Part shown: piece after piece, positions 6,731-36,021 of the stretch | Layout: each line of letters opens with the position of its first letter | Position numbering within the stretch: the first letter of the stretch is position 1 | Assembly (NCBI GenBank): GCA_943327315.2 | Contig: CALPWQ020000012.1 | Span: 1 to 37,384 of the forward strand | Direction: 5' to 3' | From: Chitinophaga pinensis | Lineage (GTDB): Bacteria > Bacteroidota > Bacteroidia > Flavobacteriales_D > Crocinitomicaceae | DNA: 37,384 nucleotides | Notes under the pieces: model-generated | What the model was told of the DNA's origin: nothing | The model's database searches: none | The model's input: the letters and a program-made list of their open reading frames with translations, nothing else | Program-made: the position numbers and the translations under genes

Positions 6731-6766
6731 AATCATGCTTCGGTGGCTCCTCCTCGGCGGACAAGT

Positions 6767-6880
6767 GAGGCACTCGAAGCACTGGTGGCTGAGGCACTCG
6801 AAGCACTGGTGGCTGAGGCACTCGAAGCACTGGTGGCTGAGGCACTCGAAGCACTGGTGGCTGAGGCACTCGAAGCCACC
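6767..6880 (+). repeat. 24-bp tandem repeat array (4 full copies plus a partial)
   Basis: The unit GAGGCACTCGAAGCACTGGT followed by GGCT repeats exactly at 6767-6790, 6791-6814, 6815-6838 and 6839-6862, with a partial fifth copy diverging to GCCACC by 6880. The last copy forms a hairpin, GGTGGC (6856-6861) with GCCACC (6875-6880), that touches the stop codon of the reverse transcriptase gene. The array also reads as a small repetitive ORF (...HSKHWWLR...), which is not taken as a gene. There are no spacers, so it is not CRISPR. Confidence 0.92.
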
Positions 6881-7959
6881 TACATTAATTCATGCATTTT
6901 TTCCTGAAACCGAAGAAAAATTGGATCATCCTTGCCACGCACCTGTCCGATAAAAGAGATGTATCCCCGTAAACGATTTAAAAAAACATGTTGGTCATTT
7001 TCACGCACAACAGGAGTGTTTTTGAAATGATTCGCAGCCGCAGCTGTTCTGCCATTTCTTTCGAGATCAAATAGCATCGCTCTTACTTGGCGGATTTGTT
7101 TTCGTTTTACATTTGCCTTCGTATTCACGACAATTCCCGTCACTTCTTTTCTTTTCCCTAAACCTTTTTGACGTATTTTTTTTTCATTTATGACAAAACA
7201 ATTAAACTCAACAATCGAACGAATTTGAGCGATTTCCTCTTGACGAAATGGAACATCAGCCGAGAAAGTGAGATCGTCCGCATAACGGGTGTAGGTCCAA
7301 GTCCTATCTGCTGAAATGCCTCTCATCGCCTCGTCCATTTGCGCGCAAATAAAGTTGGTAATGATGGGTGAAGTGGGCGCACCTTGGGGTAAATGTCCTT
7401 GATATGTTGTTAACAAGGTCAATACTGTCGCTGTCTGGTCATTAAATCTGAAACGCTCAGAAAGGAAGATTTCTTTGACACGTTGTGCACGAATGGACGA
7501 AAAAAAATCTTTTAAATCAATGTTGAGCACATACGGTTTACCGACATGTGGCATTGCATTTTGAACGATTGGCGATGCTGGGGTTCTGTTGTCCTCGTTG
7601 ATGACAAATCCAAATACCGCCGGATTGGGATTGCACATGTACAAGGACTGAAGCCCATGATTCAATGCACGTTGAACCTTCATCAAGCGAGGCTCTGGCG
7701 CTTCTATAGACCTCAAGCCACCGCGTTTCTTTGCAATGGAAAAACTTTTGTATTTGGGAGAGTTGATCAATTGCTCGAGCACTGCGCGTGGCAGCTGAAA
7801 ATACGCGCACACGTCTTGAGCATTTTCCATAGAAAGCATCAGTCCAGCAGAAATCATGTGTTTTGTCACCCCTGGAAATAATTTAATTCTCAAGCTGTGC
7901 AAGCGCAGTGTTTGTTTTAATTCCGGACGCTGCTGTGCCACAAATTCGTACAATGTCAT
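6880..7959 (-). CDS. Retron-type reverse transcriptase
   Basis: Reverse-transcribes part of its cognate ncRNA into branched msDNA. The 359-residue protein carries both retron hallmarks: the region-X NAxxH motif as NAMPH (134-138) and the region-Y VTG motif (273-275, EVTGIVVN). Other RT blocks are NIDLKDFF with the first catalytic Asp at 148, LPQGAPTSP (190-198) and catalytic YADD (226-229). About 70 N-terminal residues precede the RT fold and a short thumb follows; there is no fused effector domain. The ATG at 7959 lies 18 nt after the end of the predicted msr-msd RNA on the same strand. The gene is the last of the minus-strand series SLOG, DnaB-like, ncRNA, RT. Retrons with this layout generally act in anti-phage defence together with an accessory protein; the defence role here is inferred. 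Confidence 0.96.
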   Translation of the reverse strand: MTLYEFVAQQRPELKQTLRLHSLRIKLFPGVTKHMISAGLMLSMENAQDVCAYFQLPRAVLEQLINSPKYKSFSIAKKRGGLRSIEAPEPRLMKVQRALNHGLQSLYMCNPNPAVFGFVINEDNRTPASPIVQNAMPHVGKPYVLNIDLKDFFSSIRAQRVKEIFLSERFRFNDQTATVLTLLTTYQGHLPQGAPTSPIITNFICAQMDEAMRGISADRTWTYTRYADDLTFSADVPFRQEEIAQIRSIVEFNCFVINEKKIRQKGLGKRKEVTGIVVNTKANVKRKQIRQVRAMLFDLERNGRTAAAANHFKNTPVVRENDQHVFLNRLRGYISFIGQVRGKDDPIFLRFQEKMHELM

Positions 7960-7977: not shown

Positions 7978-8139
7978 GAGAGCCGTTGCTTCTTATCTTC
8001 AATTTAGATGTTTCGGCGAAAGTGGAGCGCAGCGGAACTTCGACGAAACATCAAAGTTCATGGCCTCCATTTTTCATTGGGTTGCAGGTGCACAACCACT
8101 TATCGGTCATTCCGACACATAAGTTGGGCAACGGCTCTC
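7978..8139 (-). ncRNA. Retron msr-msd non-coding RNA
   Basis: A predicted ~162-nt retron RNA read from the minus strand (5' end near 8139). Its ends form a perfect 12-bp inverted repeat, GCAACGGCTCTC (8128-8139) with GAGAGCCGTTGC (7978-7989): the a1/a2 stem. A further 5-bp pairing, ATAAG (8119-8123) with CTTAT (7992-7996), extends it past a small internal loop. The msr half has two hairpins, 8101-8117 (6 bp, 5-nt loop) and 8080-8097 (5 bp plus wobbles). The msd half is a long hairpin at 8007-8052. The first G after the extended stem (opposite 8118) is a candidate branch nucleotide. The RNA begins 7 nt after the DnaB-like stop codon and ends 18 nt before the RT start. No clear promoter separates it from the DnaB-like gene, so co-transcription is likely. 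Confidence 0.9.
8007..8052 (-). other. msd long hairpin (predicted msDNA stem-loop)
   Basis: The arms GATGTTTCGGCGAAAGT (8007-8023) and ACTTCGACGAAACATC (8037-8052) pair over 16 bp, with one mismatch (8016/8043), one bulged base (8021) and a 13-nt loop. An alternative pairing, GAACTT (8035-8040) with AAGTTC (8054-8059), overlaps it. Long stem-loops of this type are what retron RTs copy into msDNA. Confidence 0.82.
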
Positions 8140-9242: not shown

Positions 9243-9297
9243 ATTTCTCGCGTTCATCACACAAACGGATAACTAAGGAATATTTAACGCGAGAAAT
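9243..9297. repeat. 12-bp inverted repeat between SLOG and DnaB-like genes
   Basis: ATTTCTCGCGTT (9243-9254) and AACGCGAGAAAT (9286-9297) are perfect reverse complements separated by 31 nt. The right arm abuts the SLOG stop codon (9298-9300). There is no T-run, so a classic terminator is unlikely; an operator, an RNA processing hairpin or a structured leader of the DnaB-like mRNA are options. Confidence 0.8.
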
Positions 9298-9894
9298 TTA
9301 ATCCAGCCACGAAAACCATGTGCATTGATCAATATGTTCGACGTTCATTTGCTCACACACCTTGATCGTATGGCCCGTTCCGCCTAGTTTATCTGATGAA
9401 AAATCGATATAAAAAATCGCGAAATTTGCCGGATTCAACTGTTGAGAACCCGTAACCATCAATGTGCTTCGAAGTATATACTTAGCGGACACAATTTTCC
9501 CTCCACTTGTCTCTCCACCTAAATAGCGTTCAATACCATATCGAGCACCCGTATTGCGCTTTGCTTGTTCAACTAAGTTAGGCTCCTGCAATAAATCAAC
9601 TTGATCGAGAGAAAAACTAGCATAAGCGACGCGATTTTTTGGTCGGTGTTTTGGATCTGGGACAATAATTTCAATGCGAGATGGGTCAACTTCTCCAACT
9701 CCATGGATAAAAAAACTATCTGCGCCATCTGCATTCCCACTGCGAAAAACAATCTGTTTACTCCGTTTTGCCAACAATTTTCCCAAATCCCTTAATTTTT
9801 GCTGGTCCATAGGAGCAACATTCCGACTCCCTGCAAGTAAGACAATACTTCCAGCGATGTCGTACGTTTCTAAAAATGTATCTAAATCTAACAT
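9298..9894 (-). CDS. SLOG-fold (DprA/LOG-like Rossmann) protein
   Basis: A 198-residue cytoplasmic protein with the nucleotide-binding SLOG signature: a hydrophobic strand leading to AGSR (21-24), then a helix KLRDLGKLLAKR, a strand IVFRSG and the loop SGNADGADSFF (52-62), as in DprA, LOG and YspA-type (DUF2493-like) proteins. SLOG domains bind or process nucleotides, and several families serve as sensors or effectors in bacterial conflict systems. The C-terminal half (RYGIERYLGGETSGGK ... FAIFYIDFSSD) looks like the rest of the Rossmann fold. It is on the same strand as, and 116 bp upstream of, the DnaB-like gene, so a role in the retron locus is plausible but unproven. It diverges from the M48 gene across an 80-bp spacer. 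Confidence 0.75.
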   Translation of the reverse strand: MLDLDTFLETYDIAGSIVLLAGSRNVAPMDQQKLRDLGKLLAKRSKQIVFRSGNADGADSFFIHGVGEVDPSRIEIIVPDPKHRPKNRVAYASFSLDQVDLLQEPNLVEQAKRNTGARYGIERYLGGETSGGKIVSAKYILRSTLMVTGSQQLNPANFAIFYIDFSSDKLGGTGHTIKVCEQMNVEHIDQCTWFSWLD

Positions 9895-28179: not shown

Positions 28180-28189
28180 CGCTTTATTA

Positions 28190-28348
28190 GTTACTAATTA
28201 CGAGTTACGAATGACGAGTTACTAGTTACGAATGACGAGTTACTAGTTACTAGTTACGAATGACGAGTTACGAATGACGAGTTACTAGTTACTAGTTACG
28301 AATGACGAGTTACTAGTTACGAATGACGAGTTACGAGTTACGAGTTAA
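28190..28348 (+). repeat. Heptanucleotide tandem array (AGTTACT/AGTTACG/AATGACG)
   Basis: About 22 consecutive 7-nt units alternate among AGTTACT, AGTTACG and AATGACG without losing phase. It lies directly after the MauE/DoxX gene. It is low-complexity, with no coding potential. Confidence 0.93.
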
Positions 28349-28369
28349 AAATTGTGAATTTCTGAAGGT

Positions 28370-28488
28370 ATCAAATTACCGAAGGTATCAAATTGCCGAA
28401 GGCATCAAATTACCGAAGGCATCAAATTGCTGAAAGCATCAAATTGCCACAGGCATCAAATTGCTGAAGGTATCAAATTGCTGAAAGC
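28370..28488 (+). repeat. 17-bp tandem array
   Basis: Seven units of 17 nt of the form ATCAAATT-(A/G)C-(C/T)GAA-(A/G)G-(C/T), such as ATCAAATTGCCGAAGGC, run in tandem up to the end of the FHA gene. They have no spacers and a short period, so this is not CRISPR. Confidence 0.92.
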
Positions 28489-28498
28489 ACAAAATTCC

Positions 28499-33707: not shown

Positions 33708-34367
33708 TTACTTGCTTCGACGGTCTTTTTTATCAAAAATATCAAAAATTGAGGTTTTTACGTTGCCCGCATGTTTTGATGCTGAATAATGACGCATAGA
33801 CTCCCCCACATCCATCATCATTTGATTCATGTCTTTTTTATCAAAGGACATCACATTTTCTTGTTTAATGCTCAACATTTGTGAGGTATGGAAGGCATCG
33901 ATATCCGCTCCAATGAAACTAAAACTCCATTTTCCTGTGCCTTCCAAATGACGAACCATGGCGGAAATCTGGTGGTAGGTGTAATAGCGGGAGGTGTTTT
34001 CTTGTCCATCCGTAAGAATGACAATCACCACACTTGCTTCATCGTTTTGAATGTCACCCTGATGCGCTTCATTGATTTTGTTGATGGAAAATCCAATGGC
34101 ATCCAACAAAGAAGTAGAACCCTCTGGAACATAATTCATGTGGTTAAGTACTGGAACAAAATCAGCAGGCGCATCGCGAAATAGGTGCTCAATGTGTCCA
34201 TTAAACGTGGTCAGTGAAACTTTGTATTCTTGATCGGGAAACTCGTTCTTCAGGGAACGAATAATGTCCAACTGCGCGTTAAACCCCTTGATGGTTGGTT
34301 CAGTGCATGAGCACATCGATCCACTTTTATCCAAAATGAATTGATAGATTGTTTTTTTGTTCTTCAT
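33708..34367 (-). CDS. von Willebrand factor A-domain protein
   Basis: A 219-residue cytoplasmic vWA protein. The MIDAS metal site is visible as DKSGS (13-17), the Thr-containing loop EGSTSLLDAIG, and the Asp loop VILTDGQEN. Such proteins bind partners in a metal-dependent way and often pair with ATPases or effectors. No signal peptide is present. It is the first gene of a likely two-gene operon with the CPxC protein. The upstream spacer contains repeats. Confidence 0.93.
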   Translation of the reverse strand: MKNKKTIYQFILDKSGSMCSCTEPTIKGFNAQLDIIRSLKNEFPDQEYKVSLTTFNGHIEHLFRDAPADFVPVLNHMNYVPEGSTSLLDAIGFSINKINEAHQGDIQNDEASVVIVILTDGQENTSRYYTYHQISAMVRHLEGTGKWSFSFIGADIDAFHTSQMLSIKQENVMSFDKKDMNQMMMDVGESMRHYSASKHAGNVKTSIFDIFDKKDRRSK

Positions 34368-34789
34368 GGTTGTTTTTTTAATTGGTTATGGAACAAAGAT
34401 CCTTTAAACCAATCCGAACATGAAATCTTTGCAACCTTGCATTCCATGAATTTACTCCTTTTTAAATAGCTATGAATGATGGAAAAGGGAAAAGGGACAA
34501 GGGACAAGGGACAAGAGACAAAGGACAAAGGACAAAGGACAAAGGACAAGTCTTTGTTCCATGTTCCATCAGCGCAGCGGTCCATCGTCCTCATTAGACC
34601 TCAAGATTTCAAGATTTCAAGATACTAAGGTATCAAGACATATCAATTACTTCAAACGCTCTCCCATCTTGTTCCATGAGCTACTTCGCTTAAGAAATTT
34701 GATCTCAACCTATATCTGGGACATGACACTCGTAACTCGTGGCTTCGAGTATGCTATCGCACCTCAGCCACCAAACTCGTAATTAGTAA
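34368..34789. other. 422-bp non-coding spacer with repeats
   Basis: Holds the heptad array at 34485-34552, octad-like CAAGATTT repeats near 34600-34645, and a word near 34741-34775 (GGCTTCGAG ... CCTCAGCCACC) related in reverse complement to the GGTGGCTGAGG words at 6676-6880. No gene was recognised; short ORFs here read through repeats. Confidence 0.8.
34485..34552 (+). repeat. Heptanucleotide array (AAGGGAC/AAAGGAC)
   Basis: About nine 7-nt units, AAGGGAC x3, AAGAGAC, then AAAGGAC x4 and a partial. The same words occur near 6640-6725. Confidence 0.92.
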
Positions 34790-35911: not shown

Positions 35912-35940
35912 TTTTAATGGTTAATGTTCAATCCTTCATT

Positions 35941-36021
35941 TTCAACCTTCGAAGCTCAACGAGCGAAGTAGGTTTAATTCTCCATCTTCAACCTTCGAAG
36001 CTCAACGAGCGAAGTAGGTTT
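35941..36021 (+). repeat. Direct duplication of a 35-bp CTTCG...CGAAG element
   Basis: The 35-nt sequence beginning TTCAACCTTCGAAGCTC and ending GCGAAGTAGGTTT occurs at 35941-35975 and identically at 35987-36021. Each copy has partial dyad symmetry (CTTCG/CGAAG). The second copy reaches the stop codon of the NADAR gene (36021-36023). Confidence 0.93.

Follow-up and report, generated by a model that had tools for sequence, protein, structure and literature searches.

The locus examined here raises two questions: whether an inverted repeat beside a reverse transcriptase (RT) gene marks a genuine retron, a type of bacterial element that produces small RNA–DNA hybrids and mostly serves in anti-phage defence, and of which parts that retron consists. 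It lies in a stretch of 37,384 nucleotides, which we refer to as the window, and a sequence-only reading had taken it for a complete retron made up of an msr-msd RNA and an RT. We checked the type of RT, the anatomy of the RNA, and the order and orientation of the parts, and all agree that the locus is a genuine retron, the arms of its terminal stem covarying in 30 loci. The description as complete fell short, in that it overlooked a constant partner just upstream, a gene for a DnaB-like helicase that we call DnaBL. Together, DnaBL, the msr-msd RNA and the RT, in this order, form a three-part retron that co-occurs as a unit across Bacteroidia (Table 1); with DnaBL as the additional protein module, the retron is tripartite by genetic linkage.

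Table 1. Positions and strands of the retron features in the window
Feature	Position	Strand	Basis and remarks
Retron RT, 359 aa, without fused effector domain	6880–7959	−	RVT_1; PADLOC RT-Protease_XI 321 bits, RT half only
msr-msd RNA	7978–8139	−	162 nt; fold z −6.4; conserved in 30 loci
a1 arm of terminal stem	8128–8139	−	Pairs with 7978–7989
a2 arm of terminal stem	7978–7989	−	A run of U comes next
Nearly invariant UUAUG between a1 and msr hairpin 1	8118–8122	−	Alignment of 30 loci
msr hairpin 1	8098–8123	−	Predicted fold
msr hairpin 2, GGUUGU/GCAACC, loop GCACCU	8080–8097	−	98.7% of cells paired; both-sided changes at 3 of 5 pairs
msd hairpin GAUGUUUCG...CGAAACAUC	8007–8052	−	Beats shuffles in 22 of 30 relatives
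Predicted msDNA 5′ end	7997	+	Inferred by analogy with retron Ec86 and from GAUAA (7993–7997) beside a2
DnaBL, DnaB-like helicase ORF, 344 aa	8147–9181	−	Pfam DnaB_C, E 3.4e-71; constant partner of the retron family

The msr-msd RNA and its reverse transcriptase

The perfect 12-bp inverted repeat GAGAGCCGTTGC/GCAACGGCTCTC that forms the a1 and a2 arms lies exactly where the sequence-only reading had placed it. By itself it is little proof, because about 0.9 such repeats are expected per window by chance, against three observed (30 dinucleotide shuffles); the repeat taken alone, not being significant by length, was therefore rejected as evidence. The 162-nt minus-strand RNA folds at −61.2 kcal/mol, compared with −37.0 kcal/mol for shuffled sequences. 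To assess covariation we aligned 30 RNAs, each taken from between DnaBL and the RT, and found that the whole RNA is kept with compensatory changes in these related loci. In the a1/a2 stem, 98.4% of cells were paired and both-sided changes occurred at 11 of the 12 pairs; none of 500 shuffles was as good by any measure, and slid controls were 26–50% paired. This covariation excludes chance pairing, and the structure of the RNA is under selection. The sequence-only reading had staked its case in part on the paired arms being conserved in homologous loci, and had pointed to alignment and a covariance-model search as the means of finding out; both were run, the arms proved conserved, and the 14 matches of the covariance model were all retron loci. 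The window RNA scores 127 bits against this model, of whose training rows it is one. No Rfam family reached threshold within the window, and permissive Rfam matches around the RNA were dismissed as chance.

Both small msr hairpins described earlier were found (Table 1), hairpin 2 being the one with measured pairing across relatives. Within the UUAUG that precedes hairpin 1, G8118 is the leading candidate branching guanosine, and on the pattern of conservation a good one. The UUAU of this element can pair with AUAA at 7993–7996, which would bring G8118 next to the template start, an arrangement that we take to resemble that of Ec86; the GAUAA at 7993–7997, before a2, is nearly invariant. The UUAU/AUAA helix has both-sided changes in a viral contig (L129, described below), but we regard it as suggestive, because among the window's closest kin (its own clade) UUAU can pair instead within msr hairpin 1.

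The msd-like hairpin was likewise recovered, with arms at 8001–8020/8039–8058 that are 85% complementary and a conserved core at 8007–8015/8044–8052. We rejected the folding program's energy-minimum hairpin and kept the arms chosen by eye as the better choice, because relatives keep those arms paired with unrelated sequences: the arms change completely among relatives while the hairpin pairing persists. A second msd helix, crossing the first, is also significant in 22 of the 30 relatives. As two crossing helices are both supported, the exact msd structure is uncertain, and the msd may form a switch or pseudoknot. The loop at 8024–8037 carries a family-wide motif of the YCACTGCGTTCCRC type, which occurs in a single copy in the whole genome; on that count we rejected a dispersed repeat as its explanation.

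In the RT, the NAxxH (N134, A135, H138) and VTG (V273, T274, G275) motifs noted in the sequence-only reading are invariant in 11 relatives, as is YADD. Pfam reports RVT_1 only. The AlphaFold model of the RT (pLDDT 92) is closest to the RT of retron Eco2 (Z 29.2), and its nearest structures are the RTs of retrons Eco2, Ec86, Eco7, Ec78, Ec83 and Eco8 (Z 29 to 23); in a quick tree the protein groups among retron RTs. Within the window's clade its dN/dS is 0.08–0.15. The window also holds tandem arrays at 6766–6876, 28189–28493, 34481–34550 and 35926–36021; the first of these includes, just downstream of the RT, a 24-bp unit in 4.6 identical copies, which we set aside as unrelated to the retron.

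Linkage of DnaBL to the RNA and RT

DnaBL is encoded on the strand of the RNA, 8 bases upstream of it, and occupies the directly upstream position in all related loci that allowed inspection. When 395 Bacteroidia genomes were searched with a covariance model built on nothing but the RNA, 14 matches emerged, 11 of them outside the set from which the model was built; each of the 14 is flanked by DnaBL at its 5′ end and by a retron RT at its 3′ end, both in the orientation of the RNA. When the model was run on 395 genomes of the phylum, the window's own genome was the sole match, so the type appears largely confined to Bacteroidia, where about 3.5% of species carry it.

The same association holds within the genus. 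Among its 26 genomes, with DnaBL called at a score of at least 430 bits or as a fragment at a contig edge (G020), DnaBL is present in 13, exactly those that have the RT and RNA, while the other 13 have the replicative DnaB only; in one carrier (G010) the unit is divided between two contigs, which hold DnaBL and an RT fragment, respectively. A match this perfect would arise by chance with a probability of about 1e-7 (one over 26-choose-13, relatedness being ignored). In a set of 60 related genomes, RT homologues of 41–90% identity were found in the genus, preceded by DnaBL.

A wider scan by RT homology reduced 84,980 species genomes to 80 retron loci. In the best 21 of these (L047–L067, RT profile at least 344 bits), DnaBL is directly upstream in 20, and in the exception, L065, the contig begins inside the RT gene. 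Among the remaining 59 loci, only L076 has a DnaB-like gene adjoining the RT; L115 and L120 have one elsewhere, downstream. In a quick RT tree, 38 DnaBL-linked RTs and four others fall on one side of a branch with support of 93. Of those four, L065 and L084 (the latter with the RNA) are truncated at the end of a contig, and L119 and L015 sit on long branches. The link to DnaBL changes five times on this tree, against 30.6 times for shuffled labels. No other neighbour occurs in more than five of 24 loci, which leaves DnaBL as the only constant partner. The unit occupies the same malic-enzyme locus in five related genomes, over 78–90% RT identity; we found no empty site, as all five genomes with this locus carry the unit and the others are without the locus.

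Among the matches listed from the phage and plasmid collections, the RTs were all distant, at less than 45% identity. One viral contig (L129:4847–6858, IMGVR_UViG_3300005144_000001) has the same arrangement, with a shorter DnaB-like gene in which the Walker A lysine is replaced by arginine, then the RNA and the RT; it is possibly a phage- or prophage-borne version of the unit. The labels of some metagenome-assembled genomes look wrong, in that L053 ('Rhizobium') and L058 ('Verrucomicrobia') carry RTs inside the Bacteroidota clade, and the contig of L048, labelled 'Chitinophaga pinensis', comes from a genome belonging to the same genus as the window.

Several further genes were seen near these retrons. 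Upstream of DnaBL in the window is a 198-aa ORF (9298–9894, minus strand) with a GSR...NADGAD pattern, SLOG/DprA-like by eye and without a Pfam match; it was rejected as a partner, being found only in loci whose whole neighbourhood matches that of the window. Between it and DnaBL is another perfect 12-bp inverted repeat, ATTTCTCGCGTT/AACGCGAGAAAT (9243–9254 / 9286–9297), which could be an operator or terminator. In four or five DnaBL retrons (L036:10378–10938; L035, L038, L051) a gene of 186–198 aa, absent from the window, adjoins the RT end or overlaps with it; this gene has no match in Pfam, NCBIfam or PADLOC and is a possible fourth component of a subgroup. A gene with a VWA domain directly follows the RT in three divergent DnaBL retrons (L037:7529–8194, L049 and L067), and a homologue with 53% identity lies in the window at 33708–34367, 26 kb from the retron. 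In another locus (L043:6721–9217) the gene before a retron RT from the same genus (34% identity) is a 443-aa ORF resembling an SF1-type helicase; relatives of this ORF are also found near the DnaBL retrons L035, L053 and L060.

DnaBL and the known retron types

DnaBL keeps the RecA-type ATPase domain, linker helix and helical hairpin of DnaB, and is without the globular N-terminal head. The best DnaB profile, TIGR00665, gives 244.6 bits against a cut-off of 385 and matches from position 126 onward only, so that DnaBL, with 344 aa and no head, falls outside the replicative DnaB family; the host's separate full-length DnaB, on contig 90, scores 552.7 bits, and the genome holds no third full copy. 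The AlphaFold model of DnaBL (pLDDT 82) is nearest to a solved DnaB (4esv, Z 34.9), with which it aligns from about residue 130 on, and DnaBL shares 37% identity with the host's own DnaB. With a dN/dS of 0.06 in the window's clade, DnaBL is under purifying selection, as is the RT. Walker A (GRPAMGKT), Walker B and K-N-R are kept, and the catalytic glutamate of DnaB is aspartate in most copies, remaining glutamate in L048, L051, L057 and L061. The C-terminus ends in PF after an acidic stretch in 17 of 24 DnaBL proteins, likewise in the host's DnaB and SSB (DEVLPF); SSB tails of this PF-ending type interact with proteins of replication and repair.

It is the partner protein that defines a retron type, and most partners known so far are nucleases, NAD-consuming enzymes, membrane proteins or proteases. 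By PADLOC profile the closest RTs are those of types XI (RT-protease, 321 bits), I-C (RT-Toprim, Ec67/Eco2, 300 bits) and XII (RT-TIR, 298 bits), the profiles covering RT halves alone, and Eco2 is also the closest by predicted fold. In these three types the effector is fused to the C-terminus of the RT, whereas here nothing follows the RT/thumb region and the partner is encoded by a gene of its own upstream: the type XI profile aligns just to position 318 of 506 and the RT, ending at 359 aa, has no protease domain, and neither the TIR fusion of type XII nor the Toprim fusion of type I-C is present. Ec86/Eco1 (II), Ec78/Eco7 (I-A) and Kva2 (IX) resemble our locus in that effector gene or genes, msr-msd and RT stand in one operon; their partners, however, are NDT, PtuAB and HEPN with a winged helix, respectively, and here the partner is helicase-like. 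In retrons with a standalone effector, the RT–msDNA complex associates with the partner protein (PMC13405049). A retron in which the partner has been replaced has been reported as a hitherto unknown type, Retron-Sda1, with a III-A1-like RT and HipA/DUF3037 (PMC12548924), and differs from ours in both RT clade and partner. Compared with DnaB itself, DnaBL is a second copy beside the normal one, headless, with the glutamate mostly changed to aspartate and, in the genus, always adjoining a retron.

No retron model in PADLOC-DB 2.0.0 matched DnaBL of the window or of five other loci; DnaBL gave weak matches to mad8 (17–30 bits), and to PDC-S27 and mad4 in single loci, and NCBIfam names it just as a weak DnaB. 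Full-text searches of the open literature gave no link between retrons and DnaB, the original 13-type classification (NAR gkaa1149) lying outside the scope of that search. From PADLOC-DB, NCBIfam and the open literature we judge that a DnaB-like partner is known from no described retron type, and that this family probably represents a new type, mostly limited to Bacteroidia.

Possible roles of DnaBL

In well-studied retrons, a complex of RT and DNA sequesters a toxic partner until a phage trigger (PMC12548924; PMC13405049), and because of this analogy we propose DnaBL as a restrained effector. Our best explanation, which we hold to be probable though by a modest degree, is a three-part retron whose RT–msDNA complex restrains DnaBL until phage infection; msDNA production and function are both inferred here from other retrons. 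As in those, the RT would prime from the 2′-OH of a guanosine, probably G8118, copy the msd into branched msDNA and stay bound. The complex would then, less certainly, bind DnaBL, probably via the conserved msd loop, and hold it inactive. A phage product that altered or removed the msDNA would free DnaBL, which, by loading on single-stranded DNA or joining the host DnaB in mixed rings, would stall replication of host and phage, amounting to abortive infection. DnaBL combines the ring-forming ATPase core with an SSB-like PF tail and is without the DnaB head. More specifically, DnaBL may act as a decoy of the replicative helicase: msDNA would restrain this headless DnaB which, once freed by phage, would enter or poison the replisomes of host and phage. 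We put this forward tentatively. Against an effector role, the change from glutamate to aspartate could mean weak or absent helicase activity, the PF tail was inherited from DnaB and need not be specific to a role in the retron, and the partner in known retrons is usually an enzyme that kills directly, so a helicase may instead be a sensor.

Such a sensor is the main rival to the restrained effector. DnaBL would then be a sensor or structural cofactor that wraps or unwinds the msDNA and watches the replication fork or phage loaders, and the harm would be done by something else, for instance the RT, a fourth gene specific to a subset, or a host factor. The msDNA is single-stranded, and DnaB rings bind DNA of that kind; extra parts do exist in some loci, four or five having the short gene at the RT stop and three the VWA gene after the RT; the window and most members, however, have no further gene, and with DnaBL as the only constant partner we think this reading unlikely. 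A cellular role outside defence, perhaps in repair or the restart of replication, where msDNA would guide the helicase or act as its decoy, would suit a unit that can be stably kept, as its persistence at the malic-enzyme locus in five genomes indicates. Its patchy distribution (13 of 26 genomes in the genus, 14 of 395 in the class) and changing neighbours nevertheless look like those of a defence gene rather than a core function, and make a cellular role distinctly improbable.

The two remaining alternatives bear on what belongs to the retron at all. Some retron RTs seem to stand alone, which is the one point in favour of a retron made of RT and RNA with DnaBL as a bystander; we find this very hard to reconcile with the presence of DnaBL at all 14 loci found through the RNA and in all 13 genus genomes with the unit, with an order and strand that stay fixed across differing neighbourhoods, and with purifying selection on DnaBL. 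That the RNA belongs to another class of RT-based defence, of the DRT or Abi type, might be argued from the catalytic core common to all such RTs and from weak profile matches to Drt2 and Drt3a. We give that view almost no credence: retron profiles score 200–320 bits against 30–36 for DRT, NAxxH and VTG are invariant, the RNA has the a1/a2 architecture, and retron RTs are the best matches to the predicted RT fold.

The feature of greatest interest at this locus is DnaBL, which had been overlooked earlier. The RNA model, its boundaries and the predicted branch point make the locus directly testable, and the family offers new RT and RNA scaffolds from Bacteroidia for the production of single-stranded DNA. 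A constant link to a paralogue of the replicative helicase would add a retron type and point to some retrons protecting or attacking the replication fork via the helicase itself; if DnaBL is indeed a decoy, immunity in this family would consist in jamming the replicative helicase ring.
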